Positions 10,012-29,558 of a stretch of DNA of 64,000 nucleotides are shown piece after piece. Below the pieces are notes generated by a model that ran no database searches, was not told where the DNA came from, and worked only from the letters and a program-made list of their open reading frames with translations. Within the stretch, counting starts at the first letter, position 1. Each line of letters opens with the position of its first letter. Origin of the DNA: a bacterium (GTDB taxonomy: Bacteria; Sysuimicrobiota; Sysuimicrobiia; Sysuimicrobiales; Segetimicrobiaceae); assembly GCA_035308905.1 (NCBI GenBank), contig DATGFS010000026.1, forward strand, positions 1 through 64,000, in the 5' to 3' direction. A program made the translations under genes and the position numbers.

Positions 10012-10087
10012 GGGCCCTTAGCTCAGCGGGTAGAGCGCCGGGCTTTTAACCCGGGCGTCGGGGGTTCGAGTCCCTCAGGGCCCACCA
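10012..10087 (+). tRNA. tRNA-Lys (anticodon TTT)
   Basis: A 76-nt cloverleaf with encoded CCA. The acceptor stem GGGCCCT pairs with AGGGCCC, the D arm is GCTC/GAGC, the anticodon stem CCGGG/CCCGG holds the loop CTTTTAA (anticodon TTT), and the T arm has loop TTCGAGT. A possible promoter lies just upstream (TTGGGA then TACACT). Its 3' 45 bp are duplicated at 29514-29558, marking it as the integration site of the downstream element; the tRNA itself stays intact. Confidence 0.97.
10043..10087 (+). repeat. attL, 45-bp direct repeat (inside tRNA-Lys)
   Basis: From the anticodon loop (CTTTTAA) through CCA, this sequence is identical to 29514-29558. It is the left attachment site; the crossover must lie within this 45 bp. 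Confidence 0.93.
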
Positions 10088-10431
10088 TACCAAGGGCTAG
10101 CGAGCGGTTCGTAAAAACGTACCCCTCAATTACCCCTCACTATAACCCCGCCACGCTCGCGCACGCGACCACGGTGGCGTGGACTCAATCAATATGTCCG
10201 GGCCGTCAGGAACCTCCCTTCTACCAAGCTTCGATCCTCTGCGAGCACCTACGCGAGTCCAGTGGGCTAGCAGGGGCTTTGGCCGACAGGTACAATTGTC
10301 TTTGGTTACGGCAGCCCTATCGACAGGGTCGAACGCTGCGCCTCGCTGCGGAAGGGCATAATCGCGTTGCTACGTGCGGTCCTCGGTTCGATTCCGGAGC
10401 CTGCGCCAAGTCGCGGGAACGGAGAAGCAGA

Positions 10432-11112
10432 ATGGCGGTCACTCTAAAGGTCTCCCGGGCGGATCTCACACATCAGGCTGACTTTGTGGAGCCTGGTTTC
10501 GCCCTCTTTGGAGGAGATCCCGTAGGATTAACGCGGCGCCTCTTTGCGAAGTTGTCCCCATACGGCGTCCGTTTGACAGACATTCGCTGGGATCAAGGTG
10601 GCGGGTCTTTAGGAGATTTCAGCCTCCTTTGTTATCTGTTCAACTTCGCGGCCACATTGCGAATCAAGTTGGAGAAGGTCGAGATTCAGTGTTTGGACCT
10701 TAATCGTGTGAATGTCCAACAGCTCACTGCCGCCTCGATGGACGCTCTTACTCTCTTTGAGGCGCCCGAATTGAACACAAGGTTCAAGACCCATTCCCTG
10801 TCGCTGGGCATCCACGCTCTATTGGAGAACACCAACACTCGTGACTTCATTAACAAGTTTGCCTTCAGAGGCCCTGAAAATCTCGGTCCTAACGTGGGGC
10901 ACGGGATCGTTTTCTACTATGGTGCGCAGGATAAGCGACTATCGGCTGCGGTCACAATAGACTTGTCCGCCATCGTGAAGGACGGTCTATATTTTCGAGT
11001 CCTGTCTGTATGGGATGGGCAGAAGGTCTCGACGCGGGAGTTAACAACTGTCGCAGCCGATTTCTTGCGTAGTGTGTACGCGAGTTTCGGCCTGAGTCCG
11101 CAAGAGAGGTGA
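10432..11112 (+). CDS. Hypothetical protein, 226 aa (cassette gene 1)
   Basis: Not confidently recognised. ATG 10432 follows GGAGAAG and gives a protein beginning MAVTLKVSRADLTHQ; the frame stays open upstream, but that part does not look coding. The sequence is mixed alpha/beta with no membrane segment. The C-terminal half (VTIDLSAIVKDGLYFRVLSVWDG then a helix ending SVYASFGL) resembles the layout of the sporadically distributed TIGR04255-like proteins, a weak impression only. It opens a three-gene (+) cassette: the next gene starts 10 bp after its stop. First cargo gene of the element after attL. Confidence 0.6.
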   Translation: MAVTLKVSRADLTHQADFVEPGFALFGGDPVGLTRRLFAKLSPYGVRLTDIRWDQGGGSLGDFSLLCYLFNFAATLRIKLEKVEIQCLDLNRVNVQQLTAASMDALTLFEAPELNTRFKTHSLSLGIHALLENTNTRDFINKFAFRGPENLGPNVGHGIVFYYGAQDKRLSAAVTIDLSAIVKDGLYFRVLSVWDGQKVSTRELTTVAADFLRSVYASFGLSPQER

Positions 11113-11122
11113 GTCAACCCAG

Positions 11123-11752
11123 ATGGCCTTCGAAACTCTAGGCATCCTTGGTCAGGAACACTCGCCCGAATACGGTTACGTCCAAACCAAACCGCGAACA
11201 GAGACGGCCACAGAAGTTTCGAGTGCGTATCCGCTCAGTACCCCGCTCAGGTCAGCGGTCGCCTATACTACTGTGCTGAAGATGCCGCAGCTCGGGGGTC
11301 TAGGTGTTGAGTTAGCCTACCAATTCGGGTGGGCTGAGGTTCTCGCTTCCGCTGAAGGAATGGTGCGGGCGCTGGCGGCGCAATCTATTTTGGACGAACT
11401 GCTCGACCAAACCTATCGGCGCATGGACGGGTTTCTTGATTTGAGATCGGATTGGTACTTCCATGGCGCCCACGAAATTTCTCCAGCCACAGTTACGACA
11501 GCCAAGCAACTGCTGGGTTCGTTGCGTGATTTGTCTTACGAGATGGGCAAGCGAGTAGTGCCGTACGGGGTTGCTCCATTGGTCACTGGCGGCATCCAAC
11601 TAGAATGGCGAGGAGATCGCGGCAGCCTAGAAGTTGAGATCGGGGCACAGGGCAATCCTACCTACTTGCTGGACACAGGGCAGGGACACGAGAATGAGGG
11701 GGATCTTACTCCCGCCGACAAACTTCCGGATCTATTGCGTCGGATCCTTTAG
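11123..11752 (+). CDS. Hypothetical protein, 209 aa (cassette gene 2)
   Basis: Unrecognised soluble protein. The N-terminal 45 residues are polar and probably flexible; the middle is helical, with LDELLDQTYRRMDGFLD; near residue 155 a beta segment GGIQLEWRGDRGSLEVEIG is followed by a loop and an acidic tail. This GGIQLEW...LEVEI strand pair is the most distinctive feature. Start ATG 11123 is 10 bp after the preceding stop, and the next gene begins 27 bp downstream, so the three are likely co-transcribed. No catalytic motif is evident. Confidence 0.6.
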   Translation: MAFETLGILGQEHSPEYGYVQTKPRTETATEVSSAYPLSTPLRSAVAYTTVLKMPQLGGLGVELAYQFGWAEVLASAEGMVRALAAQSILDELLDQTYRRMDGFLDLRSDWYFHGAHEISPATVTTAKQLLGSLRDLSYEMGKRVVPYGVAPLVTGGIQLEWRGDRGSLEVEIGAQGNPTYLLDTGQGHENEGDLTPADKLPDLLRRIL

Positions 11753-11779
11753 TGCCCGCCAATCACGTTCGAAGCGGCG

Positions 11780-12196
11780 GTGGATCAAACCCCACAAGGA
11801 GAAACCGAGGGTGTCTCGGACGACGATAGGCTCTATCGTCTAATTCTTCCCGACTGGATAAATGCTGACGGCAGCATTAAGTCTGCTGCCTACCATGAGC
11901 GCAAGCGCGAAGATGGATTTCACCACATTTCGGTATTTTGGGAAAGACACGCGAGCCCTGAAGCTGTCCTGGCTTACGTGCATGGGTTAGGAGCTATGTG
12001 GGCCAATCATGGGCTCGGCGTAGTCGCAGCCAGTGTGCCCCGTTCTCTTGAGTTGACGATTCAACATACCCCAGAAGAGGGTCACGCCGCACACTGTGAC
12101 ATCGTGGGAAACGTGACCAAGTCTCGTGCAAGAGAGTTGGCCAAGAAGACGACAATCTTGATCCCACCTCCGTCGGGCGACAAAGCAAGCGCCTGA
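11780..12196 (+). CDS. Conserved hypothetical protein, 138 aa (cassette gene 3)
   Basis: Third gene of the cassette. After about 16 polar residues comes RLYRLILPDWI, then GSIKSAAYHERKREDGFHHISVFW, and near the C-terminus AAHCDIVGNVTKSRARELAK. I recall similar small proteins (LYR-x-I-P-x-W start, H-x-x-I/V-x-G and K-x-R-A-R end) as uncharacterised accessory genes of many bacteria, which would make it a real conserved family of unknown function; I cannot verify this here. The conserved His, Asp and Lys/Arg positions could form an active site. Confidence 0.6.
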   Translation: MDQTPQGETEGVSDDDRLYRLILPDWINADGSIKSAAYHERKREDGFHHISVFWERHASPEAVLAYVHGLGAMWANHGLGVVAASVPRSLELTIQHTPEEGHAAHCDIVGNVTKSRARELAKKTTILIPPPSGDKASA

Positions 12197-12205: not shown

Positions 12206-12451
12206 CTACTGCGCAGGCGGGTTTCGCGTATCCCCTCGGGGCCGCTGCGCCCATGCCCGGAGCCGATCCTCGGCTATACCCGTCGCAGCAAGGACCTTCC
12301 GAATTTCTTCCTCAGTGAAGTGCTCTTTGCCGAGCACTACAACCTCACCGTAACGCTCAGGCGAGATTCCGATTCGTTGCGCGGACTGCTCGACGCTCAG
12401 GCGTGAGCGGAGTTGCCAATACTGCACGGGGTTTTGGGTTCGAGGCGGCAT
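12206..12451 (-). CDS. Small helix-turn-helix-like protein, 81 aa
   Basis: The segment RLSVEQSAQRIGISPERYGEVVVLGKEHFTEEEIRKVLAATGI reads as a short helical DNA-binding domain similar to Xre/Cro-type regulators (helix, turn at RIGIS, recognition helix), followed by a basic disordered tail. It lies 16 bp downstream of another small (-) gene and converges on the hypothetical cassette. It could regulate the cassette or be part of a toxin-antitoxin-like pair with its neighbour; the evidence is only size and arrangement. Confidence 0.5.
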   Translation of the reverse strand: MPPRTQNPVQYWQLRSRLSVEQSAQRIGISPERYGEVVVLGKEHFTEEEIRKVLAATGIAEDRLRAWAQRPRGDTRNPPAQ

Positions 12452-12800: not shown

Positions 12801-13748
12801 CTACTCGTGGGCATCGGCATGTTCGTAATCTCGATTTTCCACGGGTACGAAGTAACCGCTGGGATATTGGTAGATGCGGCAGAAAGCGGTCGTGCGAGAG
12901 AAACCGCTTTCGTCAGCAAACGTGAACCATCCCATGACGTAGAGGGGCGCACGGCCCATCACGAACTCGATAGGGTCTTCTCCTGGTTCCCCCACTTTCC
13001 AATTGCTTTCAACATCGACCGGCTTCGCATCGCCGTGGACGAGCGGCCCGAGAGCGATCCCTTGGCCGCTGAGACCTTCATAGGGCGGCAACGCAGGTAA
13101 CCATCCGCCTGGCGGGTTTCGGTAAACCCAACACCCGCCGTCCGTGATGGTGGCGGTCGTCCCGCCGATATTGGAAACGAAGAACCGGACGCGTATCGGC
13201 TGACCGCGAACGAAGAAGTCTTCTTGCTTATGGGTGGACGGATGCCCCTCGGGGGCTTTCAGATACATTTTTCGAACGACCAACCTGGGAGGGTGGGCGA
13301 GTACGAGCGTTTTGTTCGCGAGTACCACGCCGTCCCCGGCGGCGCGCGCGGCGACTTCAGTAGCCCTGAGTGTTCGAACCAACGCGATGACCTGAACAAT
13401 GAGTACCAAGACTTCGAGCGCCGCTACACCGAGAAGCCATCGGTAGATGCCAACTTGCTTGGCGAGGATTTCATTCTGTTTCTCGGCGATCTGAAGGGTT
13501 CTCTTCCGAAATTCTTCTTCGGCGGCGTTTGTCTGTTGGCTTGTGCGTGCGGGTTTGCTTTGTTGATTAACGAGTGCTGGCGAGGCAGTTGCCTGATGTT
13601 GGTTGGGGGGAGTGCCTCTAGTTTGGCCGATGGTGGCGGTTCGCGCGTTTAGCGTAACGGTTCCGAAGAGGACGCAGATCCAACCCGTCAGGATAAGCGC
13701 AGACCATCTGCGGTATAATCGCGTCGAGATCAACCTGCGCCTCCCCAC
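12801..13748 (-). CDS. Two-TM membrane protein with C-terminal soluble domain, 315 aa
   Basis: First hydrophobic segment near residues 15-32, a Gln/Ala-rich linker, then a helix (EEEFRKRTLQIAEKQNEIL) running into a second TM, WLLGVAALEVLVLIVQVIAL. After a connecting helix rich in Ala comes a beta-rich domain with FVSNIGGTTATITDGG. This architecture is common among uncharacterised bacterial proteins. Its C-terminal region (YVMGWFTFADESGFSRTTAFCRIY) parallels that of the gene at 16048-16812 (YFVGIVRYEDATGRHHTDYCRYF), so both probably belong to one superfamily. It is divergent from the gene at 13922. Function unknown. Confidence 0.65.
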   Translation of the reverse strand: MGRRRLISTRLYRRWSALILTGWICVLFGTVTLNARTATIGQTRGTPPNQHQATASPALVNQQSKPARTSQQTNAAEEEFRKRTLQIAEKQNEILAKQVGIYRWLLGVAALEVLVLIVQVIALVRTLRATEVAARAAGDGVVLANKTLVLAHPPRLVVRKMYLKAPEGHPSTHKQEDFFVRGQPIRVRFFVSNIGGTTATITDGGCWVYRNPPGGWLPALPPYEGLSGQGIALGPLVHGDAKPVDVESNWKVGEPGEDPIEFVMGRAPLYVMGWFTFADESGFSRTTAFCRIYQYPSGYFVPVENRDYEHADAHE

Positions 13749-13921: not shown

Positions 13922-14785
13922 GTGCCCGGAAGCTCGTGCAATCCATGCCTAATCCTTGCGGCTGACGCCCGAAAAGGACAGAAGCAGGCAAGTCGCGTTG
14001 CTAGGCTCGAATTACAGGCTATCGTGCGTAGCACAAAATCCAGGGACATTAAATATGCATTTGTGGTTTCTGCAAACGATCTCCGCAGGCTCGACGGTTT
14101 GCTTTCCGCAATTAACGCGGACCGGGAATACGAAGTCGAACTCTCAGATGGTTCCACATTGTACTGTCCAACGGTCGCAGAAGTAGGTGGCGTAGCAAAC
14201 GTCAAGGACAGGGCCATTCGCAGTATCGTAGCCAGGACGCGCGGGACCTCTGAGCCGCAAGCACAGGTCAGACTTAGAAGTAGCCCTTGGTCTTTTGGGA
14301 ATCCCTCCCTAGTCGTTGATCCCATCGCCTATTCTGTCACAGGAGAAGATAAGGAGGTCCTCTACCACTCTAATAGGCTAGATGAATTTGCAGCCAGCAT
14401 ACGGCAATGGTATACTCGCGCGGCATATGCAGACTACGTTCTGGGATTTTTTCTAACCACAATTGCGGCCGCTATGGCTCTTGTACTCTTCGCCGGTTCG
14501 TCGCACCTGCCAAACGCGAACGAACGGACAGAAAGTGACGGTCGTATTCTAACCGTTCTCATCGTATCGTTCCTAGTCCTCATGCTGGTCCTATCACTCA
14601 ATGCGTTACGCAACGCGGTTTTTCCGGTTGCGACGTTTGCCATTGGCCAGGGCGTCGCGCGGCACAATCTTTTGCGTTCCATCCGATATGTAGTCGCAAC
14701 CGTCGTCCTTTTGGGGCTCATAGTAGGGATATTGTCAGGGGTACTTGCTGCGCGCCTCGTTGGGTCGGGCGGACAGGCCAGATAA
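13922..14785 (+). CDS. Membrane protein with N-terminal soluble domain, 287 aa or shorter
   Basis: Residues about 35-170 form a soluble domain with KYAFVVSANDLRRLDGLLSAI and YEVELSDGSTLYCPTVAEV; the C-terminal part has three hydrophobic helices (around ADYVLGFFLTTIAAAMALVLF, ILTVLIVSFLVLMLVL and VVATVVLLGLIVGILSGVLA). The start is uncertain: GTG 13922 is the longest, GTG 14024 is an alternative that removes a poorly structured leader; neither has a strong ribosome-binding site. Unrecognised family. A sensor-domain-plus-TM layout is typical of membrane-acting defence or signalling proteins, but that is inference from position in an accessory region. Confidence 0.6.
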   Translation: MPGSSCNPCLILAADARKGQKQASRVARLELQAIVRSTKSRDIKYAFVVSANDLRRLDGLLSAINADREYEVELSDGSTLYCPTVAEVGGVANVKDRAIRSIVARTRGTSEPQAQVRLRSSPWSFGNPSLVVDPIAYSVTGEDKEVLYHSNRLDEFAASIRQWYTRAAYADYVLGFFLTTIAAAMALVLFAGSSHLPNANERTESDGRILTVLIVSFLVLMLVLSLNALRNAVFPVATFAIGQGVARHNLLRSIRYVVATVVLLGLIVGILSGVLAARLVGSGGQAR

Positions 14786-14906: not shown

Positions 14907-16025
14907 ATGTTATCCGCATCAAATCCAACTGGCGTTCTCGTCCTCGACAAGAAAGACCGTTACCTTTACCATTACACGTCTATCGAAACGGCCCTCAGCC
15001 ACATCCTGCCGCAAGGCGCACTACGCCTGGGTCCATTTACTAAGACCAACGATCCCCGCGAGAGCAAAGACTGGAAATTCGTCTTTGTATCATATAAAAA
15101 TGCATTCGCCGAGGTCTCGGAGGAAGAACGTGCAAGGCTAGCGCGAGAGGCCGCGCAGTTGGCAAAGAACACCTGCAAGGTATTGTGCTTGACCGAGGAT
15201 GACGAACGGGCCGTTGGCGGTGGCATCGACAGTATCTATTGGCGAGGATTCTGTCGCCCTCGAATGTGGGCGCAATACGCGGACAAACACCGAGGAATCT
15301 GCTTGATTTTCGACCGAGCGCAACTCCGTGAGTCTATAATGACATCCCTCGAAGCCTCTTCTGTGCTATTCGAGAGGAGCGTTGAGTACCACAACAGGTC
15401 CTCGGCTCCTCCCCCAAGCAAAGGTCCCTTCTTTCTCAACTTGGATTCGATGCGATCCGACGGGCCTGAAAGGACGATCCGTAAACACATCAGCGAGTAC
15501 TGGCGTGAACTTTTCTTCGAAAAAGCGCTCGATTGGCAGGATGAAAAGGAATTTCGGTGGGTAGTTTGGGATCTAACTCATTCTGAGCATTTTGTCAACT
15601 TCGGAAGCGCTCTAAGAGGGATCGTCGTTGGCCCTGAATTTGATGATCGCCTCTTGCCAGGTCTCGGGGATTACGTCGCAAGATATGATCTTTATCTATG
15701 CCGGTTGGACTGGAATAACGGCGTCCCTCAAGGTCCCTTCCCCAGAAGAGCTTCCACTCCAAGTCCCCCCTCGATGTGGATGACCATCGCCGATGAATGG
15801 CCTCAATACCATCCGCTGAGGAAGTGGAATCCACACTGGCACCTCAACCGGGCCGCTGATTTGGGATTGACTGTAGAGCGCTATCTGGAACTTGCGGCTG
15901 GGGGCCACCCTACACCCGAAGAAATGAAGGCGATCACCGAACGCACGAATATCACCGAACACCAATGGATTGAATGGGAAAAATCCAAACCGCGACCTGG
16001 AGCGGAACCGTCTAAGCCTAAGTGA
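14907..16025 (+). CDS. DUF2971-like protein, 372 aa
   Basis: The N-terminal LYHYTSIETALSHIL followed by LGPFTKTNDPRES, then WAQYADKHRGICLIFD, and later EKALDWQDEKEFRWV match the pattern I know from DUF2971 proteins (an N-terminal HYT motif, W-x-Y-x-x-x-H-x-G-x-x-x-x-F, and K-x-x-x-W-x-x-E-x-E-x-R). The family is uncharacterised; the motif spacing recalls ADP-ribosyltransferase-like folds and members often sit in accessory or defence islands. The C-terminal 100 residues are an extra helical region with a polar tail. ATG 14907 is the first codon of the conserved part; its Shine-Dalgarno is weak. Confidence 0.7.
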   Translation: MLSASNPTGVLVLDKKDRYLYHYTSIETALSHILPQGALRLGPFTKTNDPRESKDWKFVFVSYKNAFAEVSEEERARLAREAAQLAKNTCKVLCLTEDDERAVGGGIDSIYWRGFCRPRMWAQYADKHRGICLIFDRAQLRESIMTSLEASSVLFERSVEYHNRSSAPPPSKGPFFLNLDSMRSDGPERTIRKHISEYWRELFFEKALDWQDEKEFRWVVWDLTHSEHFVNFGSALRGIVVGPEFDDRLLPGLGDYVARYDLYLCRLDWNNGVPQGPFPRRASTPSPPSMWMTIADEWPQYHPLRKWNPHWHLNRAADLGLTVERYLELAAGGHPTPEEMKAITERTNITEHQWIEWEKSKPRPGAEPSKPK

Positions 16026-16047: not shown

Positions 16048-16812
16048 CTAATCGACCGGCGCGTGTTCCTGGTTGTGAGCGCCGGAAACAAAAAGGTCGT
16101 CTCCACTGATTCTTGCCGTGAAGTACCGGCAGTAATCGGTGTGGTGTCTGCCCGTCGCGTCCTCATATCGGACGATCCCAACAAAGTAAATCGCCCTCGT
16201 GTGTTCGAGGATTCTCTCACCTTCTGCGTGAGTTAATATTGGCCCCGCATTGTCGTGTTCAAATGACTCTCCCGGTCGCACGATGCGGTTAGGCGCCACA
16301 TTGCCCATTGCGGCGACTGCCGGAAGAAATTGGTCCCGCCAAAGTCGGTCAGCGAATCGCGTTTCCTCGAAGGGGTCAGACGGGGGGGCGTCGGCGGGAA
16401 GGGCATTGCCGACGGTGTTGACTCGTGCTTCCATATCTCCGCTGTTACGAAGTATAGCCTGGCAGACGATTGGGAATCCGACACTCAGTTGGCCGGGCAA
16501 GAACACTCTCTGCACAGTGATCCTGGCCCCGGTGAGCGGCGGCGAGGGAGTCGGCCTCTGCTGTAGTTCATGCTCTAGTTCCTGATACATTTGATATGGG
16601 ACCGTGATGAATCCGTATAGTAGCGCGGCAACGAACAGCAGAATGGAAACTGCCCAGAGCCAACTGTTGTAATCTCTGCCAGCATGAAGTGCGGCCAGCG
16701 CTCCGAAGATAATTCCGGCGACAAACGCAGCAGCTCGCGTCCAACCGAAAGCGCTCCGAACAGCGCGACGAGCCCATTCCCCGTAGAACTCGTGGGGCGT
16801 CATGCCCAGCAC
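16048..16812 (-). CDS. Two-TM membrane protein with C-terminal beta domain, 254 aa
   Basis: Two hydrophobic helices (TRAAAFVAGIIFGALAALHA and LWAVSILLFVAALLYGFITV) form an N-terminal hairpin, followed by an acidic/Gln-rich linker and a beta-rich domain with QAILRNSGDMEARVNTVG and a C-terminal YEDATGRHHTDYCRYF. The order differs from 12801-13748, but the domain order TM, linker, beta domain and the closing D-x-x/E-x-G...C-R motif are shared. Unrecognised. It is convergent with the DUF2971-like gene, with 22 bp between stops, and lies downstream of the Mrr-like gene on the same strand (54-bp gap). Confidence 0.65.
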   Translation of the reverse strand: MLGMTPHEFYGEWARRAVRSAFGWTRAAAFVAGIIFGALAALHAGRDYNSWLWAVSILLFVAALLYGFITVPYQMYQELEHELQQRPTPSPPLTGARITVQRVFLPGQLSVGFPIVCQAILRNSGDMEARVNTVGNALPADAPPSDPFEETRFADRLWRDQFLPAVAAMGNVAPNRIVRPGESFEHDNAGPILTHAEGERILEHTRAIYFVGIVRYEDATGRHHTDYCRYFTARISGDDLFVSGAHNQEHAPVD

Positions 16813-16865: not shown

Positions 16866-17489
16866 CTACCCGACGGCGCTGGTGGGCTTCTGCTTGGCTC
16901 CGGCCTGGCTATCGCGCTGTAACTGGATCTTGTGGACAAGATCCGTCAATTCGCGTCCGCCAATAAGTGTGACGTGATGTTTCCTCGCGAGGTCGATAGC
17001 CGGGCCGGAGAAATCCGAGGTCGTCACAAAGAGCCCGTGGTCCGCTTTATGGTGGACGGTCATCATGCCGATGAACTGCTGTATGTCTGGCGATCCGACA
17101 CGATGCCCTGGCACGTACCGCTTACATTGCACGACGACCGACTTTCCGCTTTGATCGCGGCAAGTTAGATCGGCCGCAAGGTCCCCTGAGCCACCTACGC
17201 ACCTGACGCTTCGGTAGCCGGTCTCGGCGAGAATGTCCCCGACGCGCCGCTCAAACTCTCGCGGCGTACACGCGAGCAGGTCGCCGAGCGTCCGAATGTG
17301 TTGCAGTCGGCGCTGCCGATCACCTTGAGGAAGCCGGATCCAAAAATACCATGCTCCCGCAGCACCCAGCGCGATCATGAGCACGCTGCCCGTTGTCCAT
17401 CTGTGCGCGAGGGAATTGAGCCCGACGAGCCCACCAGCCATTACAAGGGAGACGAGACCCAACCTGAAGCGGATCTCATCCAGAGCCAT
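16866..17489 (-). CDS. Membrane-anchored Mrr-like restriction endonuclease
   Basis: Two N-terminal hydrophobic helices (about residues 9-27 and 33-52) anchor a cytoplasmic Mrr_cat-type PD-(D/E)XK domain. The domain begins with TPREFERRVGDILAETGYR and has catalytic residues in GDLAADLTC and VVVQCKRY (Asp plus Q-x-K), then VGSPDIQQFIGMM and GLFVTTSDFS. Mrr-type enzymes cleave modified or foreign DNA; a membrane-anchored form may act at the site of DNA entry, an inference. The start ATG overlaps the stop of a small upstream gene (TAATG at 17487-17491), implying coupling. Confidence 0.82.
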   Translation of the reverse strand: MALDEIRFRLGLVSLVMAGGLVGLNSLAHRWTTGSVLMIALGAAGAWYFWIRLPQGDRQRRLQHIRTLGDLLACTPREFERRVGDILAETGYRSVRCVGGSGDLAADLTCRDQSGKSVVVQCKRYVPGHRVGSPDIQQFIGMMTVHHKADHGLFVTTSDFSGPAIDLARKHHVTLIGGRELTDLVHKIQLQRDSQAGAKQKPTSAVG

Positions 17490-17629
17490 TATCTTAGACT
17501 GGCCGCCCAGGCCAAGATCGCGCTGATGAAGACCATCCCAAGCGTCAGCGCAATATACTCAACTGGAAACTTGACGGCGCGTGCTTCGGCGATGGACTCG
17601 CGGCAATCCTCAGCGCCCGGCGTTCGCAC
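17489..17629 (-). CDS. Candidate 46-aa single-TM protein coupled to the nuclease
   Basis: GTG 17629 is preceded by GAGGGG at suitable spacing and opens a frame ending TAA at 17489-17491, overlapping the nuclease ATG. The C-terminal half, VEYIALTLGMVFISAILAWA, is a clear transmembrane helix. It overlaps the end of the upstream 74-codon gene. The frame stays open further upstream, but there it is antagonistic to the better-supported gene. A real small gene is likely but not certain. Confidence 0.42.
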   Translation of the reverse strand: MRTPGAEDCRESIAEARAVKFPVEYIALTLGMVFISAILAWAASLR

Positions 17630-17834
17630 GAAGGATCGCCCCCTCGACCAGTTCGATGACGAGTTCATGGGGCAGGCGTCCCGTCCTGCGGGCCCGTTCT
17701 TCGCAATGCTCAACGACATGAGCCGGGAACCCAAAGGCATCGAGCGACTTCAGTGAAAGGTTGAATTGGGCGCGGTTCCACGCGCCCGCGAGAGACTTGT
17801 CCCGACGTTCGATACGGTCTCCTATGCTCGACAC
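17610..17834 (-). CDS. Small helical protein, 74 aa, upstream of the nuclease
   Basis: GTG 17834 follows GGGGAGGG at good spacing. The sequence is helical and charged, with HVVEHCEERARRTGRLPHEL and VIELVEGAILRANAG, a pattern compatible with a small DNA-binding or antitoxin-like protein (possibly ribbon-helix-helix), though no family is recognised. Its end overlaps the candidate 46-aa membrane protein, which in turn overlaps the Mrr-like nuclease: three compactly overlapping (-) genes, suggesting one functional module. Confidence 0.5.
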   Translation of the reverse strand: MSSIGDRIERRDKSLAGAWNRAQFNLSLKSLDAFGFPAHVVEHCEERARRTGRLPHELVIELVEGAILRANAGR

Positions 17835-18205: not shown

Positions 18206-18382
18206 CTAGGCCAATTTCGATTTCCTCGCCTTCCGCCTCTTCGCTTCACGAGCCTCGACCGCCAGCCTCGCCAACCGCGACCGCTCCTGTGCCGACAGAC
18301 TGCTCATTCGTGCCTTCCCGCCAAGGCGTCCCAACGTGACAGCGGCCGGATTCTTTTTTCTTTTACGCGACGGCCGGGTCAT
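18206..18382 (-). CDS. Small basic KNPAAV-type protein, 58 aa
   Basis: A short gene whose ATG (18382) overlaps the stop of the secreted-protein gene upstream (ATGA, 18379-18382). The product starts MTRPSRKRKKNPAAVTLGRL, continues GGKARMSSLSAQERSRLARL and ends with a basic AVEAREAKRR tail. It shares KRKKNPAAV-S/T-LG-x-LGGK-x-RM and LAVEAREAK with the protein encoded at 19028-19315, so these are paralogues. I recall similar short basic proteins in many genomes, function unknown; a nucleic-acid-binding role is plausible from charge. Confidence 0.7.
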   Translation of the reverse strand: MTRPSRKRKKNPAAVTLGRLGGKARMSSLSAQERSRLARLAVEAREAKRRKARKSKLA

Positions 18383-21136: not shown

Positions 21137-21236
21137 TTACTAGGCTCACAAGGTGAGCCCATCTACTAGGCTCAATTTGAGCCCCCATGGGCTCATAACC
21201 GTGAGCCCGTTACTAGGCTCATAAGGTGAGCCTCTA
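21137..21236. repeat. Array of four palindromic iteron-like repeats
   Basis: Four inverted repeats GGCTCA-N(3-6)-TGAGCC occur at 21144-21160, 21170-21184, 21191-21208 and 21217-21233; three are preceded by TACTA. Spacing between centres is about 23-26 bp, roughly two helix turns, so sites face the same side of DNA. Likely binding sites for a dimeric protein, plausibly the HTH protein ending 15 bp upstream; a replication origin or operator is inferred. Confidence 0.75.
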
Positions 21237-22096: not shown

Positions 22097-22846
22097 TTAC
22101 CGGCCTGCACGCTTGTCTTTGCCCTGGTCGGTCTCCATGTGGGGGCCATAGAGCCGAGTATTCTTGGTGATGTACTGAATCTGTCGCACCGCCCAACGCC
22201 TCCCCGTCTGCGTTCTGATCCGGTCGGCGTTCAGGGCGGCGGCGATTCCTCGAAGGCTTGTGCCCCGAGCCCGCATGGTGTAGATTCGCCGCACGATCTC
22301 CAGTTGACGAAGGTTTGGCTTGAGGCGCTTGCCGTCCCGAGAGAATCCAAACGGCGTCGGGCCATAGACTCGGCCTTCTTCACGCAACTTGGCGAGTGCG
22401 TCGGTGGTTCGGGCCGAGACCTGGCGCTGTTCGAACTCCGCGAACGTTCCAAGCATCGACACCATGGCTGCGCCCATCGGGGAATCGGTATCGAAGGACT
22501 CGGTGAGACTGACCAGCGCCACCTTTCGTTTTTGGAACTCACGAATGAGCGTCAGCAGGTCATACAGGCTCCGACTGAGCCGGTCGATCTTGAAGACCAA
22601 CACCGCGTTGATCTTGCGGGCTCGAACATCCTCCCGCAGTTGGTCGAGGGCATCGCGGCGAGTCGTCTTCGCGGAGACTCCCGCGTCCGTGTAGACCTTG
22701 ACGATGCGCCATTCACGTATCTTGGCGTACTCGCGCAACCGGCTCTCCTGTAGCGCCAGGCTGACGCCGGTGTTCTTCTGCTCCTCGGTCGAGACGCGGC
22801 AGTAAATACCGACGCGTGTCTTGCCGTCTTGCTCAATCGGACCCAT
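22097..22846 (-). CDS. Serine recombinase (resolvase/invertase family), 249 aa
   Basis: N-terminal resolvase domain with the nucleophilic Ser in YCRVSTEEQ near residue 18, then AKTTRRDALDQL, VLVFKIDRLSRSL (the DRLSR arginines) and MGAAMVSMLGTFAEFEQRQVS. A short recombinase-type domain follows (GPTPFGFSRDGKRLKPN..., EIVRRIYTMRARGTSLRGIAAALN). At 249 residues it is longer than simple resolvases and much shorter than large serine integrases, so a role in resolution or inversion is likelier than the integration itself. The ATG is preceded by GGAGGAG. Confidence 0.9.
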   Translation of the reverse strand: MGPIEQDGKTRVGIYCRVSTEEQKNTGVSLALQESRLREYAKIREWRIVKVYTDAGVSAKTTRRDALDQLREDVRARKINAVLVFKIDRLSRSLYDLLTLIREFQKRKVALVSLTESFDTDSPMGAAMVSMLGTFAEFEQRQVSARTTDALAKLREEGRVYGPTPFGFSRDGKRLKPNLRQLEIVRRIYTMRARGTSLRGIAAALNADRIRTQTGRRWAVRQIQYITKNTRLYGPHMETDQGKDKRAGR

Positions 22847-22931: not shown

Positions 22932-23177
22932 CTAGTTGACGCCTCCGTCTCCGATCAAGGGCACTCGGCACATAATCGACTTGGCGAACGCAAGCGCGTC
23001 GGCGAACGTCTCAAAGTCTTTGGCGTAGTGCTCAGCCAGTGTGAACACTTCAACCACATAGCGCACGGGGCTGCGCCCCTCTCGCATGAACACTGAGGGG
23101 TTCTCGTAGATCACGGCCTTCGCGCTATCCGTCTTCCAGACATCGCGCACGGTCCACGAACTCCAAAAGCGTTCCAT
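22932..23177 (-). CDS. Small hypothetical protein, 81 aa
   Basis: ATG 23177 follows GGAGGCCACA. The protein begins MERFWSSWTVRDVWKTDSAK and contains VFMREGRSPVRYVVEVFTLAEH, then FETFADALAFAKSIM; it reads as an alpha/beta fold with two or three strands and a C-terminal helix. No family recognised. It lies between the clamp gene (140 bp upstream on the same strand) and the serine recombinase (85 bp downstream), probably in one transcript with them. Confidence 0.6.
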   Translation of the reverse strand: MERFWSSWTVRDVWKTDSAKAVIYENPSVFMREGRSPVRYVVEVFTLAEHYAKDFETFADALAFAKSIMCRVPLIGDGGVN

Positions 23178-23316: not shown

Positions 23317-23991
23317 TTACTTGTCGCGCATTGGCATGACCAGGGCTTCTACCTGCGCGGATTCCTTGGAATGGGAGACTACCACCTTGGTAGCCTTCTC
23401 CGAGCCGTGGAACTCGAAGCGTACCATCGGCTTATGCCCGTCATCGGCGAGCGCCGCCAAGGCTTTGAGTGTGTCCGCGAGAATGTTGGCATCGAAGGCG
23501 ATTGCGAAGGTAGGCTCATCCTTCGGCATTACCTGGTCGATATTCGGGTAGTTCCCGTCCACCGGCTTAACGGGCGTGATAGATGCGGATTGCAGGTCGG
23601 TAGACGCGAAGGTAACTTGCGCTTGTTCCATTGTGAGGGCGAGACAGCCGAGGATGGGCCGATACTTAGGCTTAGGGACGGCCTTAAACGCCTTCTTCCA
23701 GGCGTCCAGGGGGATAATCGCTTCTTGAGCGCCGTTAGCGTTGGCGTCGAATCCAGCGATGGTCGGGAAGTCTTCGGGCTTGAAAGGGGTCGGCACGGTC
23801 GCCCGAATCATCCTCGCCCCGTCCGTAGCTTCGATAATCACCCCTGCGTCAGTCGCCTTTACGTGGACACCGCATAGGGCCGAACGGTTCTCATCCTTAC
23901 TGGCAACATCTGCAACCCGTTCAAACGCTTTGGGAATCAGAATCATCTTTGCCGTGCGGGGGACTTGCGGAGAATCCTGTTCCTGTGCCAT
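23317..23991 (-). CDS. DnaN-like sliding clamp homologue, two-domain, 224 aa
   Basis: ATG 23991 follows AAGGAGG and gives MAQEQDSPQVPRTAKM. Features of the beta clamp are visible: GVHVKATDAGVIIEATDGARM (domain-II-like ATDG-x-R), AIIPLDAWKKAFKAV, PVDGNYPNIDQVMPK (the GxYPDYxxVIP element) and a C-terminal VEALVMPMR, which matches the DnaN ending. At 224 residues it corresponds to domains II and III only; chromosomal DnaN has three domains in about 370. Two-domain clamps such as PCNA and T4 gp45 are trimers, so this may form a trimeric ring for the element, or act as a decoy. Ring formation is inference. Confidence 0.75.
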   Translation of the reverse strand: MAQEQDSPQVPRTAKMILIPKAFERVADVASKDENRSALCGVHVKATDAGVIIEATDGARMIRATVPTPFKPEDFPTIAGFDANANGAQEAIIPLDAWKKAFKAVPKPKYRPILGCLALTMEQAQVTFASTDLQSASITPVKPVDGNYPNIDQVMPKDEPTFAIAFDANILADTLKALAALADDGHKPMVRFEFHGSEKATKVVVSHSKESAQVEALVMPMRDK

Positions 23992-24359: not shown

Positions 24360-24530
24360 ATGGTCATGATTCAGGTTGAAGAGGGGAAGGCAGAGGTGTT
24401 CGACGTGGATTTTGATCAGGCTCTATCGGCTCTGCGTTTTCTCAGAGACCGGATTCCACCAAAACCACGGACTCCATCGAGCAGAAAGACCAAGCCGGTG
24501 CGGAAGTCCGTGAGACGGTCAGGGCGATGA
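24360..24530 (+). CDS. Small beta-beta-alpha protein, 56 aa
   Basis: ATG 24360 follows GGGAGGAG; a second in-frame ATG lies two codons later. The product starts MVMIQVEEGKAEVFDVDFDQ, then ALSALRFLRDRIPP and a very basic tail (R/K-rich, ends VRRSGR). The N-terminal unit resembles those of the proteins at 20554 and 25021. Unrecognised; the basic tail suggests nucleic-acid contact. The next gene starts 4 bp after its stop. Confidence 0.65.
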   Translation: MVMIQVEEGKAEVFDVDFDQALSALRFLRDRIPPKPRTPSSRKTKPVRKSVRRSGR

Positions 24531-24534: not shown

Positions 24535-24828
24535 GTGAGTGAAGCAGCCGAGAGAGAAACGACGATCACCTGGAGTGATGCTGACGGGGGGATCGCAATG
24601 GTCTGGACCGCGCAACGCTCGATGGCGAGTCGCCTCAAGAAGATCCGTGGGGCTGAGGTGGTTGAGGTCCACACGACCGAACGCGGTGACTGGACCGGCG
24701 AGACTTGGAGGGTGCCGGTCGCGGCTGTGCTTCCGAGGAACACGAGGAAAGGTCGTCCCATGACGGAGCCTCAGCGACAGGCACTCCGGCGGGCTCATGG
24801 GGCCAGGACACTTGCGGCCGTCGTCTAG
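24535..24828 (+). CDS. Hypothetical protein, 97 aa
   Basis: GTG 24535 lies 4 bp after the preceding stop. The protein contains TTITWSDADGGIAMVWTAQRSM, ASRLKKI and VVEVHTTERGDWTGETWRVP, then a basic C-terminal helix PMTEPQRQALRRAHG. The strand pattern plus W-x-V/A-x-A resembles small phage-encoded proteins of unknown function. No motif identifies a reaction. Coupled to the 56-aa gene upstream. Confidence 0.55.
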   Translation: MSEAAERETTITWSDADGGIAMVWTAQRSMASRLKKIRGAEVVEVHTTERGDWTGETWRVPVAAVLPRNTRKGRPMTEPQRQALRRAHGARTLAAVV

Positions 24829-25020: not shown

Positions 25021-25365
25021 ATGCCATTCATCGCAATCTTCGATGACCAGTCAGGACGCCAGGTGGCTCGCTTCGACCTGAACGAGCCTGATGCCAAAGC
25101 GGTGCTCGGCTACGTCCGAGGCATCGCTGTGTCGCGGCAGAAGCCGAAGACCGCGCAGCAACCGCCGGGATCGCCGATGCCGGAGACGGCCGTCCGATAC
25201 CCGCAGCCTCACCAGCCGGTGTTCGGGCAGCACCCATCCACCGGAGCGGTGCCGGGCAATCTGCACCCTGCCGTTGCGTTGAATGGTCCCGGGACGGCAG
25301 GCGTCTCCAAGAACGCTCCCGACAGGTTCGCGAATCCCAAGTTCCGTCGCCAGCCGGTGAGGTGA
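25021..25365 (+). CDS. Small protein with beta-beta-alpha N-terminus and Pro-rich tail, 114 aa
   Basis: ATG 25021 follows AAGGTGG. Residues 1-38 (MPFIAIFDDQSGRQVARFDL, DAKAVLGYVRGIAVSR) resemble the N-termini at 20554 and 24360; the remaining 75 residues are Pro/Gly/Gln-rich and likely disordered. The gene lies in a run of (+) small genes separated by about 130-190 bp, each with its own Shine-Dalgarno. Function unknown; the repeated occurrence of the N-terminal unit suggests a shared binding partner. Confidence 0.55.
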   Translation: MPFIAIFDDQSGRQVARFDLNEPDAKAVLGYVRGIAVSRQKPKTAQQPPGSPMPETAVRYPQPHQPVFGQHPSTGAVPGNLHPAVALNGPGTAGVSKNAPDRFANPKFRRQPVR

Positions 25366-25493
25366 CGGGGCGTGACGTTTCACGAACGATTGAACGTGGG
25401 GCTAGGCGCTTGGCAGGAGTTGATGGGTCCGGTGACCTGCGAGAATCGGGCCCGGACCTGCCCCCCGATTTTCAAAATACTCTAACAGGGTAG

Positions 25494-26264
25494 GTGAGGT
25501 TCGTGCCCATCCTTTCGCAACCAACCCCAGGGGGAAGCCCCGCTTCGCTCGTTGCTGGTCGATCCAACATCAATCCCTTGCTGCAAAATCAGTCAGGGAA
25601 CCCGGACGTGACCTTTGGACGGCTTGGCCTTCCCTACGCCATGCCTCGTGCAGGGTCTCCTGAAGCGGCTCGGATGCCGCGAGGTGCCGGTGTAGGAATC
25701 AACTCCTCACCGACTGGAGCGGTCGAAGGTGGAGACAGCACCGTGTCTAGGATGCTGGCAAATGCGATGACGCCTCAACCAACAGGTTCCGTTCAGGCGG
25801 CCACAGGCACTCCGCCTCCTGCGGTCATGGCGCAACAGGTGGCTCCGGTGGGTCCAACCGTCCGGCCTGCTCCTCCTGTCACTCCATCGCCGCTGTCGGG
25901 GCCTGCCCCTCAGCCCGCGTCACGGCCTACGGCGGCACCTGCTCCTACAGGACAACCTGCCGGGGGTGGCACGTCGAGCGCAGTAAGGTCCGCTGCTCCG
26001 TCTGCCGCTCCTGCTATGGCCGCTCCCACCGGGGCTCCGTCTCCATGGTGGAACTCGACACCGGCTGCCGGTCAAAACCTGTCTCCAAATTGGTGGGAGA
26101 CCCAGGGCGTACCTCCGAGCGTGATGATGGATCGTTCCGAACAGGACCGACTGGGGCCTTACGGGTTTACGCAGTACAAGAGTCCCGAGGGCAAGCAAGA
26201 TACGGGAGGAACGGGTAAAGATAGCGGCACCACCGAAACGACGGGCCAAGAAGGCAACTATTAA
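25494..26264 (+). CDS. Pro/Ala/Ser-rich low-complexity protein, 256 aa
   Basis: The frame opens with GTG 25494 (MRFVPILSQPTPGG). It is dominated by Pro, Ala, Ser, Thr and Gly, especially residues 100-180, with no signal peptide or membrane helix. The C-terminal part contains two WW-type aromatic motifs, SPWWNSTPAAGQNLSPNWWE, and a polar Gly/Thr tail. Such composition is seen in phage scaffold-like and cell-surface linkers, but nothing here proves either. Codon use is consistent with translation, yet the start has only a weak Shine-Dalgarno. Confidence 0.5.
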   Translation: MRFVPILSQPTPGGSPASLVAGRSNINPLLQNQSGNPDVTFGRLGLPYAMPRAGSPEAARMPRGAGVGINSSPTGAVEGGDSTVSRMLANAMTPQPTGSVQAATGTPPPAVMAQQVAPVGPTVRPAPPVTPSPLSGPAPQPASRPTAAPAPTGQPAGGGTSSAVRSAAPSAAPAMAAPTGAPSPWWNSTPAAGQNLSPNWWETQGVPPSVMMDRSEQDRLGPYGFTQYKSPEGKQDTGGTGKDSGTTETTGQEGNY

Positions 26265-26389
26265 CGCGTGAGCCACAAAAGGAACCATCGGGGAGTGGAG
26301 ACAATCGTCTCTGCTGCCCGAGCGCGTCACGGCGAGACGGAGAGAGAACGGCACCTCCACACACTCAGGTCACATAAGGAGAAGTAGTC

Positions 26390-26617
26390 ATGGCCTCCCC
26401 TGACGATCTGCGCAAGAGAAAAGGTAGAGGTGAGAAAACAACGATTGAACGGATGCTGGAAAAAGGAAGAGGCTCTTCGGAGCACCCTGGCGTAGAGGCT
26501 CCCTATCCAAAGGTTCCGGGGTCTCCGGATCAGCCCGGTGGAGAGCCGGACAGGGGAAAGGGTCCGGGCCGTTCGGATCAGCCCCAAGGATTTTCGTCCA
26601 CGGCGTCGAATAAGTAA
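26390..26617 (+). CDS. Small disordered basic protein, 75 aa
   Basis: ATG 26390 follows AAGGAGAAG. The first 30 residues (MASPDDLRKRKGRGEKTTIE, RMLEKGRG) are basic and helical; the rest is Pro/Gly/Asp-rich with repeated PGSPDQPGG/GRSDQPQG units. Unrecognised. It is the last small gene before the integrase, which begins about 210 bp downstream. Confidence 0.5.
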   Translation: MASPDDLRKRKGRGEKTTIERMLEKGRGSSEHPGVEAPYPKVPGSPDQPGGEPDRGKGPGRSDQPQGFSSTASNK

Positions 26618-26827
26618 GGGCACCCCCGGTTTTTAACCTGCACCTGCCCAGGCGAAATGTTGGCAGGAGCCCACGCAAGCACCTCTGCGATCCTACCGAC
26701 CAGGAGTTGTCCCGTGCCTCCCGTTGAGGCACACGGGACGGGTCCCCCCGTGTCCTCTCCATCCAAGGAACGCTCCACCGTCAATCGAAACCTCTCTCCC
26801 GCAGCGCTTCGAGCGCGGGGGTGGGCG

Positions 26828-27934
26828 ATGCCAGGGCATATCCGAAAGTTCCGGAAGTATCACGTTCTTCGGATTCACATCGGGCACAGGAAGTACCGAG
26901 ACTACTACTACCGAACCCGTCAAGAGGCCGAGGCCGCGCAGGCAGAACTAGCGACCCATGTGCGGGCGCACTCCTCGGGTCTCGGCATCGCCGGGAGTCC
27001 CAAAGAGCGATTGGCACCGTACCTGCATGACTGGCTCGACCTGCGCCGAGGGCGACTCTCCCCGAAGACCGCAGAGCGATACGACTCAATGATTACACGG
27101 ATTGGGAAAGACCCGCTCGGCAGCCTGCTCCTACACCGCGTCTCCAGTCGCTCCCTCGAAGCGTTCTATGTACGGCTTGGGGAGCGGGGACTGTCGGCGA
27201 CGACAGCCCATCACTACCACCGCTTTTTACACAAGACGCTCAGAGATGCTGAGCGGCAGGAATTGATCCGCCAGAACCCGGCGCACCTGGCTGAGGGGCC
27301 ACGGCGCACACAAGCACGACCGGAGGTCTGGACAGAAGCGCAGGTCCATTTGTTCCTGAGCGAAGCCCGCGAGCGAAGCCAGCACTATCCGCTGTACTTG
27401 TTCTTAGCCGCCACAGGGTGCCGCCTGGGAGAGGCCCTGGCGCTTCACTGGACAGACGTGGACCTGAGGGAAGCGGACGTGACGATCCGCTCTTCGCTCG
27501 TGAGGCCGCGCGGCGGCGGATACGTAGTGAAGACTCCAAAGACCCGCAGTTCGGAACGATGCGTCGGGATCCCTCAGGAACTTATCGAGTGCTTGAAGGC
27601 GATGCCCAGACGGGGAGAGTTTGTCTTCTCGCGGCGGGACGGTGGGCCGCTCCACGCGAACAATCTGCGACGGCGCGACCTCCAGAAACTGTGGGAGAAA
27701 AGGTTGGATGGCACTCCGTCATCGTTGACAGCGATGTCATGGAGGCGGGCCCTGCACAACCTCAGACACTTTCATGCCTCGTATCTCCTCCAGCAAGGTG
27801 CCAACGTGCGGGCCGTCTCGGAGAGACTGGGGCACCGAACAGCATCATTCACACTGAACACCTACGCTCACGTCATCCGCCGGAAGGACGCGACCACGGG
27901 GATGATTGCGGAGTTTCTGGCGCGATCAGTGTGA
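26828..27934 (+). CDS. Tyrosine recombinase/integrase of the element
   Basis: A 368-residue phage-type integrase. ATG 26828 starts MPGHIRKFRKYHVLRIHIG, the usual opening of the arm-binding (AP2-like) domain; the frame is open further upstream, but that stretch has no integrase character. A SAM-like core-binding domain (LAPYLHDWLDLRRGRLSPKT) is followed by the catalytic domain with Arg in GCRLGEALALHW, Lys in VKTPKTRSSER, HNLRHFHAS (HxxR), LGHRTAS and the nucleophile in NTYAHV. All catalytic positions are intact. It lies 1.6 kb inside attR and is the obvious enzyme for integration into tRNA-Lys. Confidence 0.95.
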   Translation: MPGHIRKFRKYHVLRIHIGHRKYRDYYYRTRQEAEAAQAELATHVRAHSSGLGIAGSPKERLAPYLHDWLDLRRGRLSPKTAERYDSMITRIGKDPLGSLLLHRVSSRSLEAFYVRLGERGLSATTAHHYHRFLHKTLRDAERQELIRQNPAHLAEGPRRTQARPEVWTEAQVHLFLSEARERSQHYPLYLFLAATGCRLGEALALHWTDVDLREADVTIRSSLVRPRGGGYVVKTPKTRSSERCVGIPQELIECLKAMPRRGEFVFSRRDGGPLHANNLRRRDLQKLWEKRLDGTPSSLTAMSWRRALHNLRHFHASYLLQQGANVRAVSERLGHRTASFTLNTYAHVIRRKDATTGMIAEFLARSV

Positions 27935-28072
27935 AGGATGCGCCCCATCCAGCCAGGCCATGTATTTCAAGGCCAGGCGAAGGGTTGCTAAGATCTAACA
28001 GCGTGGATTGTGGTCGTTGCTGGATCTCAGTTAAGCAATCAGTAGGGTCGTTCGTGGGGTGAGGGGACCGCC

Positions 28073-29320
28073 ATGAACACCGTAATCGTCTTAGTCAGCC
28101 TTTTCGCCCTGCTGGTCTTCGTCGCGTGGATCATAGACAATGCGAAGACCGCCAAAGTCTATCGCACCCTAAGGCCGAAGCTCGACAATCTTGAAAACCA
28201 GGAACAAGCCTTCAAGAATCAACAGGCTGATTGGGCGCGAAAGCTTGAAAACCACGAACAAGCCTTCAAGAATCAACAGGCTGATTGGGCGCGAACTCTT
28301 GAGGCAGAGAAGTTCGAATGGGCTCGGAAGATCGAGGCGGACAAGAAAGCTATTGAGATGATCGCGCACGAAAAATCCGTGGGTTTCCCCTGGCTGGCAG
28401 AGGCGTATGCGGACTACTTCCACCTGCTGGACATGAAAGAATCGAATTACCTACGGCACAAATCGCATCCAGCCGTGAAATCAGCGCAGCAAGTTCGTGA
28501 AATCGCACAGCAGCGGCGAATCGCCGAAAAGACATGGCGTGTTCTGAAGTATCAACTCAAATATTACGAGGAACTCTTCCCATTCTTGGTCGAGTTCAAA
28601 GAAGAGGCCATCGACGACCTCATTCGTCAACTGACGACAGGCACTCCACAGCCAGAAGCGGACGACGAAGATCCGGTAAGGCACTGGTTGACGCAGGCCG
28701 AGTACAGCAGTCTTGCGTCAGCAACAAGAAACCAGCTGGCGCTCGACCGGTATTGGCGAAGGAAGAAGTCCTCCTGGGAACTGGGCCGGGACTACGAGCG
28801 GTACATTGGCTATCTGTATGAAGTTGACGGGTGCCGCGTGTTCTACCAAGGCATCATCGAGGGGTTCGCAGATCTTGGTCGAGACTTGGTGGTTGAACAC
28901 CCTAGCGGCCAAATCGAAATTATCCAGTGCAAATACTGGTCCCAGGACAAGCTCATCCACGAGAAGCATATCTTTCAACTCTACGGCACCCTGGTTGCGT
29001 ATCGGATCGACCATCCTCAGTCCCAGGTTTCCGCCACCTTCGTGACCTCCACGGCTCTGTCGGACAGGGCCAACCAATTTACGAAGGCTCTAAACATACG
29101 TTCCTTGCAACACCAGCCCTTAAAGCAATATCCTTGCATAAAGTGCAACGTGTCGCAGAGGGACGGCGAGAAGATCTACCATCTTCCTTTTGACCAGCAG
29201 TACGACAGGACACTGATCGGGCACCACAAGCTGGAGTGCTATTTGACGACCGTGGCAGAGGCTGAACGACTTGGATTTCGCAGGGCCTTTCGCTGGCACG
29301 GAGATTCTGCGGCGTTGTAG
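28073..29320 (+). CDS. Membrane-anchored restriction-endonuclease-like protein with coiled coil
   Basis: A 415-residue protein: one N-terminal TM (VLVSLFALLVFVAWII), a charged coiled coil with an exact tandem duplication (residues about 40-75), a helical middle region, then a PD-(D/E)XK-like core (FADLGRDLVVEHPSG and EIIQCKYWS: Asp plus Q-x-K). The C-terminus has CIKC, GEKIYHLPFDQQYDRT and AEAERLGFRRAF, matching the short IYHxP...YDxT...EAExxGFR domain seen at the ends of some secreted nucleases. Membrane anchoring recalls the Mrr-like protein at 16866. It is the last gene before attR, a common place for defence cargo. Confidence 0.75.
   Translation: MNTVIVLVSLFALLVFVAWIIDNAKTAKVYRTLRPKLDNLENQEQAFKNQQADWARKLENHEQAFKNQQADWARTLEAEKFEWARKIEADKKAIEMIAHEKSVGFPWLAEAYADYFHLLDMKESNYLRHKSHPAVKSAQQVREIAQQRRIAEKTWRVLKYQLKYYEELFPFLVEFKEEAIDDLIRQLTTGTPQPEADDEDPVRHWLTQAEYSSLASATRNQLALDRYWRRKKSSWELGRDYERYIGYLYEVDGCRVFYQGIIEGFADLGRDLVVEHPSGQIEIIQCKYWSQDKLIHEKHIFQLYGTLVAYRIDHPQSQVSATFVTSTALSDRANQFTKALNIRSLQHQPLKQYPCIKCNVSQRDGEKIYHLPFDQQYDRTLIGHHKLECYLTTVAEAERLGFRRAFRWHGDSAAL
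28190..28297 (+). repeat. Tandem 54-bp duplication in the nuclease coiled coil
   Basis: Two adjacent 54-bp units (28190-28243 and 28244-28297) encode LENQEQAFKNQQADWARK and LENHEQAFKNQQADWART, nearly identical at DNA level; a degenerate third unit (LEAEKFEWARK) follows. The in-frame duplication lengthens the coiled coil between membrane anchor and nuclease. Confidence 0.9.
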
Positions 29321-29513
29321 TAGCCGATATTCGACCATCCGCCCGGCAGTACCGTGAAGTGCTTATGAACGCTGACCGGCTTAGGGATTCTTTGAGCGGT
29401 GCAGGTCTTGAACCTGCGGCCTCATCCGTGTACCCTTCGGATACCCATCACCTGTCGTATCGGAACACGCTAGAGCCCTTGGTAATCAAGGCCCAGAGAA
29501 AATAACACCCGAA
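29321..29513. other. Spacer before attR with a tRNA T-arm-like hairpin
   Basis: No gene. On the (-) strand 29417-29401 reads GCAGG-TTCAAGA-CCTGC, a T-arm-like hairpin, followed by ACCGCTCA as a possible acceptor end; a matching 5' half is not found, so it is at most a tRNA relic. Confidence 0.3.
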
Positions 29514-29558
29514 CTTTTAACCCGGGCGTCGGGGGTTCGAGTCCCTCAGGGCCCACCA
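29514..29558 (+). repeat. attR, 45-bp direct repeat of the tRNA-Lys 3' end
   Basis: Identical to 10043-10087, from the anticodon loop to CCA. It defines the right end of the integrated element. Confidence 0.93.

Follow-up and report, generated by a model that had tools for sequence, protein, structure and literature searches.

A putative satellite-like integrative element with a phage-type replicon in the tRNA-Lys gene of a Sysuimicrobiota genome

The window considered here is a stretch of 64,000 nucleotides of contig DATGFS010000026.1 (C26), one of the 81 contigs in the 4.0-Mb assembly GCA_035308905.1 of an uncultured member of the Segetimicrobiaceae, phylum Sysuimicrobiota. At the 3' end of a tRNA-Lys(TTT) gene it contains an island of 19.5 kb with approximately 30 open reading frames (ORFs), which is the element under study (Table 1). 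ORFs in the window were listed, scored for coding and scanned with the profiles of Pfam, PHROGs, PADLOC and NCBIfam, tRNA genes were called with ARAGORN, and the phylum was sampled through 43 genomes; the basis is one assembly, and the defence roles discussed below come from profile matches, part of them weak. The element is bounded by an error-free direct repeat, not attributable to chance, of the end of the tRNA gene, which is the sole match of an Rfam scan. Between the repeats the GC content is 57.7% over 19.4 kb, as against 70% in the rest of the window. The perfect duplication, the compositional shift and the size and mostly unrecognised gene content of the element had all been proposed in an initial annotation made from the sequence alone, and are confirmed here. 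The same is true of its intact tyrosine integrase, serine recombinase, sliding-clamp homologue, nuclease cargo and iteron array beside an initiator-like helix-turn-helix (HTH) protein, while of the two HTH domains it ascribed to a further protein, one is an HTH_17 domain and the other a weak MerR-like match.

The absence of virion and conjugation genes, also claimed initially, agrees with the Pfam and PHROG searches. Among the scanned ORFs there was no significant match to capsid, portal, terminase, tail or lysis families, although such a search could miss a terminase small subunit of low conservation, and the nearest match to a head protein (0.06) was judged to be due to chance. Nor did any scanned ORF of the element significantly match a relaxase, a mobilisation protein or a type IV secretion system. 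In these scans the element showed neither the structural, packaging and lysis genes of a prophage nor the relaxase or secretion system of an integrative conjugative or integrative mobilisable element.

Replication functions are represented by a gene here termed Rep, which appears to encode the winged-helix DNA-binding domain of a lambda-O-type phage initiator without the C-terminal part. Its matches are confined to the N-terminal 70-100 positions of phage initiator profiles 196-383 positions in length. Four palindromic iterons, forming a probable origin, begin 20 bases 3' of Rep and are the only GGCTCA palindromes in the 64 kb, in which approximately 0.01 would be expected. The Rep ORF ends before the iterons and the frames downstream are interrupted by stops; an initiator that ends just before the iterons is unusual. 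By analogy with lambda O, the part missing from Rep would be the one that recruits the helicase through a loader. Scans of the element's ORFs with Pfam and PHROGs likewise identified no helicase or loader family.

The iteron palindrome alone was used as a pattern on viral contigs, yielding at least 120 stretches that were then screened for relatives of Rep. Among the matches listed, L231 (IMGVR_UViG_3300047508_000088) encodes an initiator 38% identical to Rep over 90 residues, and the palindromes recur within the gene for this 203-residue initiator, directly after the winged helix. L231 is a tailed-phage contig, in which genes for a terminase (5e-67) and a portal protein (4e-25) are close to the initiator. 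As the palindrome was found in none of 17 other viral relatives of Rep fetched by sequence (L049-L065), the iteron sequence varies within the initiator family, and the match with L231 is not automatic. That initiator and site occur together in distant phages is evidence that Rep binds the iterons, and the four are predicted, with some likelihood, to be its cognate sites. Through its initiator domain and its iterons, the replicon of the element appears to be traceable to tailed phages. Also among the matches listed, L158, L165, L204 and L227 have the palindromes within ORFs that read by eye as winged-helix proteins; the arrays of GGCTCA-N-TGAGCC in initiator-like genes of these four diverse viral contigs and L231 constitute a shared iteron type.

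Another unusual component of the element is the short clamp. Sliding clamps of the DnaN type have three domains in a dimeric ring, whereas this protein lacks domain I and aligns with DnaN from mid-molecule to the C-terminal MPMR (DnaN columns 143-287 by hhalign), retaining the TDG.R, P....V.P and MPMR motifs that are invariant across five DnaN sequences. It is distinct from the host's full-length DnaN, which is encoded on contig C14, and its similarity to PHROG 3007 suggests that it is a phage-type relative of DnaN. It gave the best match to this profile among 242 genomes (89.5 bits), the runners-up (63 bits) being DnaN-sized frames of approximately 370 residues or more. No close relatives of the clamp were found in viral contigs, phages or genome contigs; one apparent relative, in genome G047, is the ordinary DnaN of that genome. 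A single-sequence AlphaFold model of the clamp was uninformative (pLDDT 39) and was not used. The label RusA-like resolvase borne by PHROGs 3007 and 12598 is probably wrong, as both match DnaN-like clamps.

RHRY-type residues are readable in the integrase ORF, and no close relatives of either the integrase or the HTH_17 protein were found in viral contigs. The flanks of the element hold traces of what seem to be other insertions. Beyond attR, positions 29559-30194 (636 bp, 59.6% GC, one secreted-protein ORF) are closed by a degenerate third att copy; because this copy bounds a further stretch of low GC content, the segment probably represents what is left of an older tandem insertion. Just inside attR, adjoining an Mrr-like gene, is a 3' piece of tRNA-Val(CAC), which is probably the relic att of a second element with another target, since the sequence recurs both on contig C45, which holds the real gene, and as a matching piece on C22. 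The left flank is conserved as far as the tRNA in genomes G001 and G002, while in relatives the right flank is joined to other DNA. Four relatives retain this right flank of the chromosome, from 30302 onwards, at a place that is not beside tRNA-Lys, implying that the locus has been rearranged in the host lineage.

The recognisable cargo appears to consist largely of candidate anti-phage genes. PADLOC candidates cluster from the tRNA to about 19.4 kb (window position), and comprise an Mrr type IV enzyme, a PDC-S31-type protein and weak matches to PDC-M32A and PDC-M32B, the PDC families being candidate defence families only. The first gene of the three-gene operon (10432-11112) has no match. No close relatives of the protein encoded from 25494 or of the small protein C2 were found in viral contigs, nor any of C2 in genome contigs. 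The 74-residue protein, further copies of which are encoded close to other integrases and to tRNA-Lys sites in the clade, may be the product of an island-linked gene, and the diverged pair at 18206-18382 and 19028-19315 encodes small KKNPAAV..GGK..RM proteins. A recurrent motif resembling TGTGATAC, seen by eye, occurs in intergenic positions at 19014, 21742, 21783 and 24323 and is a possible promoter or operator.

The integrase family is common in the host's bacterial family, and the search for related elements at tRNA-Lys in other genomes found related integrases at this gene in contigs G006:C44 and G009:C104. The genome from which the window comes has a further island (G000:C11), at tRNA-Met, which also carries a serine recombinase, an AbiU2-like HEPN protein and an IS481 transposase; paired tRNA-Lys ends are also present in G007, G029 and G035. 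The island of G006, from a sister genus, encodes ZacA, ZacB and ZacC (425, 604 and 1175 bits), which form the ZacABC defence operon; a UvrD-like helicase and a PD-(D/E)XK-like protein are encoded beside it. Islands of this integrase group thus land repeatedly at tRNA ends in this clade, and several of them have anti-phage cargo. The three islands resemble the element in their related integrases (36-53% identity), their att repeats at tRNA 3' ends, the presence of defence cargo in two of the three and, in G006, the gene for C2. They differ in their particular cargo and in the lack of Rep, iterons and clamp, which were found in none of the other islands examined.

Table 1. Features of the element and its flanks, by window position, and related islands in the same clade
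Feature	Position	Strand	Evidence
tRNA-Lys(TTT), integration target; attL core 10043-10087	10012-10087	+	ARAGORN; 45-bp repeat
Three-gene cargo operon (10432-11112, 11123-11752, 11780-12196)	10432-12196	+	PADLOC: second gene near PDC-M32A 1.2e-5, third near PDC-M32B 1e-4 (weak)
Small HTH_31-like protein	12206-12451	-	Weak, Pfam 0.016
Membrane-anchored protein	12801-13748	-	ORF and coding score; no significant family
Membrane protein	13922-14785	+	32% homologue near tRNA-Val on contig C45, same genome
DUF2971 protein, PDC-S31-type candidate defence gene	14907-16025	+	Pfam 1.8e-8; PADLOC 6e-11; PHROG 1762 4e-22
Membrane protein, very weak SLATT/2TM-effector similarity	16048-16812	-	PADLOC and NCBIfam scans
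Transmembrane-anchored Mrr-type endonuclease, type IV restriction-like	16866-17489	-	Mrr_cat 8e-28; mREase_IV 4e-18
74-residue small protein	17610-17834	-	56-67% copies by C11 integrase region; 42% copy by G007 tRNA-Lys
Small Lys/Gly-rich protein; diverged duplicate 19028-19315	18206-18382	-	136-nt repeat, 73%
Secreted BamE-like protein	18379-18951	-	Pfam BamE 7e-5; homologues in other islands
HTH_17 (AlpA/MerR-like) regulator	19918-20478	+	Pfam HTH_17 3e-5; PHROG 2474 0.007
76-residue small protein	20554-20784	+	ORF with ribosome-binding site
Rep, putative winged-helix domain of lambda-O-type phage initiator, 99 residues	20823-21122	+	PHROG replication-initiation families 270/6643/391/8540, 4e-8 to 7e-7
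Probable origin, four palindromic iterons GGCTCA-N3/5/6-TGAGCC	21143-21232	.	Starts 21143, 21169, 21190, 21216
Serine recombinase, resolvase and partial Recombinase domain	22097-22846	-	Pfam Resolvase 8e-43; Recombinase 4e-10
81-residue small protein	22932-23177	-	ORF with ribosome-binding site
Short sliding-clamp homologue, 224 residues, no DnaN domain I	23317-23991	-	PHROG 3007 5e-25; PHROG 947 6e-20; TIGR00663 1e-12
56-residue small protein	24360-24530	+	ORF with ribosome-binding site
C2, conserved integrase-associated small protein	24535-24828	+	71% in G002; 42% beside G006 tRNA-Lys island integrase
Three small/low-complexity ORFs (25021-25365, 25494-26264, 26390-26617)	25021-26617	+	ORF listing, PHROG scans
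Tyrosine integrase, intact	26657-27934	+	Pfam Phage_integrase 3e-18; PHROG 1 9e-60
Membrane coiled-coil protein with Mrr-type nuclease domain	28073-29320	+	Mrr_cat 8e-7; sunset domain 4e-5
3' piece of tRNA-Val(CAC), 35-39 bp	29393-29432	-	97-100% to contigs C45 and C22
attR core, perfect copy of tRNA-Lys 3' end	29514-29558	+	Repeat search
Degenerate third att copy, older	30195-30244	+	Repeat search; 94% identity over 30207-30238
Island G009:C104, tRNA-Lys, 19.3 kb			35-bp att repeat; related, broken integrase; metabolic-type cargo
Island G006:C44, tRNA-Lys, 32 kb	contig 17.5-49.6 kb (L036/L037/L263)		49-bp att repeat (98%); 36%-identical integrase; C2 gene
Island G000:C11, tRNA-Met, 14.0 kb, same genome as window	contig 23.9-38.0 kb (L029/L030)		46-bp att repeat (93%); 48%-identical integrase

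We consider that there is an even chance that this is a satellite-like, non-autonomous integrative element, or the immediate derivative of one, belonging to a group of tRNA islands specific to the clade. Recombination by the integrase at the tRNA-Lys 3' end would release the element as a circle of 19,471 bp, on which Rep would bind the four TGAGCC palindromes beside its own gene and so mark the origin. Because Rep is without the part that recruits the helicase in phage initiators, this origin would fire only with a factor supplied in trans, for which the likeliest candidate is the initiator or loader of a phage that shares these iterons and infects the cell. The short clamp may help the replisome or compete for it, the serine recombinase may resolve multimers, and transfer would take place in the particles of a helper phage, the benefit to the host being the candidate anti-phage cargo beside the tRNA. 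Dependence on a helper is suggested by a gene set that would mark an origin, integrate and excise, yet apparently could not fire that origin itself, form particles or conjugate. Both the perfection of the 45-bp repeat and the intactness of the integrase favour recent or continuing movement. A more speculative proposal, which we regard as rather unlikely, is that the stripped-down initiator and its copy of phage iterons act as a replication parasite of, or decoy against, infecting O-type phages with TGAGCC iterons, drawing the phage replisome to the element's origin or sequestering it, with the clamp acting on the same machinery, such that theft and defence would be a single mechanism.

It is possible, if on balance doubtful, that the island is instead a defective prophage, in which an O-type tailed phage inserted in tRNA-Lys was stripped of late genes and of part of its initiator, at the end, kept its integrase, gained defence cargo and became immobile as a unit. 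This would account for the phage-type replicon and clamp, for Rep stopping where phage initiators run on through the iterons, and for the tandem att relics and tRNA-Val piece, as signs of repeated insertion and decay at the site. However, the Pfam and PHROG scans detected no structural or lysis gene, even in fragments, and with the integrase, recombinase and clamp ORFs intact and the att repeat perfect, the insertion seems to be recent or maintained. The main difference between such a prophage and a satellite is whether the unit still moves. There is a small chance that the island is an integrative mobilisable element, replicating as a plasmid-like circle once excised and moved by a conjugative element through an unrecognised oriT: the integrase, replicon and resolvase fit, and elements relying on oriT alone carry no marker protein, but the scans found no relaxase or mobilisation protein and the replicon is of the phage rather than the plasmid type. 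It is similarly improbable that this is a plain genomic island in which chromosomal and phage genes have accreted on a segment with an integrase, the replication genes having no present role. The tRNA-Lys island of G009, with its related but broken integrase, metabolic-type genes and no replication genes, provides a precedent; against this, Rep and its likely cognate iterons have been kept adjacent, an arrangement that would not last long under drift, and candidates for defence make up most of the recognisable cargo.

Several observations weigh against the element being a mobile satellite. The truncation of the initiator and the lack of a sister copy favour decay, and comparison gives no indication that the integrase, Rep, iterons and clamp have been transferred as a whole, since no other genome or contig was found to have the complete set. 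No clean empty site was found among relatives, in which contig ends and the rearranged right flank intervene. The iteron array was found nowhere else in the host genome, with no resident prophage bearing these iterons, and the pattern produced two single matches and no array in the phylum's other 42 genomes, so that no helper phage was found. Finally, no cos or pac site, terminase small subunit or capsid-remodelling gene was recognised in the element.

Satellites are well described in few bacterial groups, and, if the satellite reading is correct, the element would add a satellite-like example from a phylum that has been little sampled, within a group of tRNA islands carrying anti-phage genes. 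A phage initiator domain paired with TGAGCC iterons, as in the element and in several phage contigs, offers a handle for predicting helper or target phages.

Phage satellites have been described as having att repeats, an integrase, an HTH_17 regulator, replication functions and anti-phage cargo, but no structural genes, within 7-20 kb (PMC13376191, PMC10803314, PMC9122126). Helper dependence and the partial initiator apart, the element appears to match the general description (PMC13376191, PMC10803314, PMC11389934): it has att repeats, its own integrase, a fixed site and no complete virion gene set; its putative replication functions consist of iterons and a partial Rep. The initial annotation as an integrative tRNA-Lys element with replication-like genes is hence upheld, but its statement that no standard category fits was too strong, being true of the named satellite families, the defining features of none of which were found in full, and not of satellites in general. 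The element is probably a member of no named family, its kind being known in general and new in detail.

Among known systems, phage clamp proteins of PHROGs 3007 and 947 resemble the element's clamp, which matches PHROG 3007 over 182 of its 190 positions, though no close relative was found in a phage or genome. The phage-inducible chromosomal minimalist islands (PICMI) of the Vibrionaceae are similar in combining an integrase, an AlpA/HTH_17 protein and replication functions with an anti-phage accessory spot and no capsid-remodelling genes, and HTH_17 (PF12728) is among the profiles for AlpA in the PICMI model (PMC10803314). They are defined by an integrase, AlpA and a DUF3987-type primase at fis, the type PICMI being 6.1 kb in size, whereas the element, at 19.5 kb, has the integrase and HTH_17 protein but lies at tRNA-Lys with an O-type Rep and a clamp, and no primase was detected among its Pfam matches. 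P4-like satellites and phage-inducible chromosomal islands (PICIs) share with it a fixed chromosomal site, defence hotspots and, as is probable for the element, an origin of their own (PMC9122126). Unlike them, it has no recognised P4 alpha, psu or delta gene or genes of the Stl, ppi or terS type; the hallmarks of P4-like satellites, PICIs, capsid-forming PICIs (cfPICIs) and PICI-like elements (PLEs), namely the alpha primase, psu, Stl/ppi/terS and capsid genes, were absent from its Pfam and PHROG matches, the SatelliteFinder models not having been run. In lambda-O-type phage replicons the initiator gene does not stop before the iterons, and the helicase-recruiting, loader-binding C-terminal part and the loader or helicase gene, both missing here, are present; the element nevertheless shares with them a winged-helix initiator and a block of palindromic iterons right after the DNA-binding domain, down to the same palindrome in L231.

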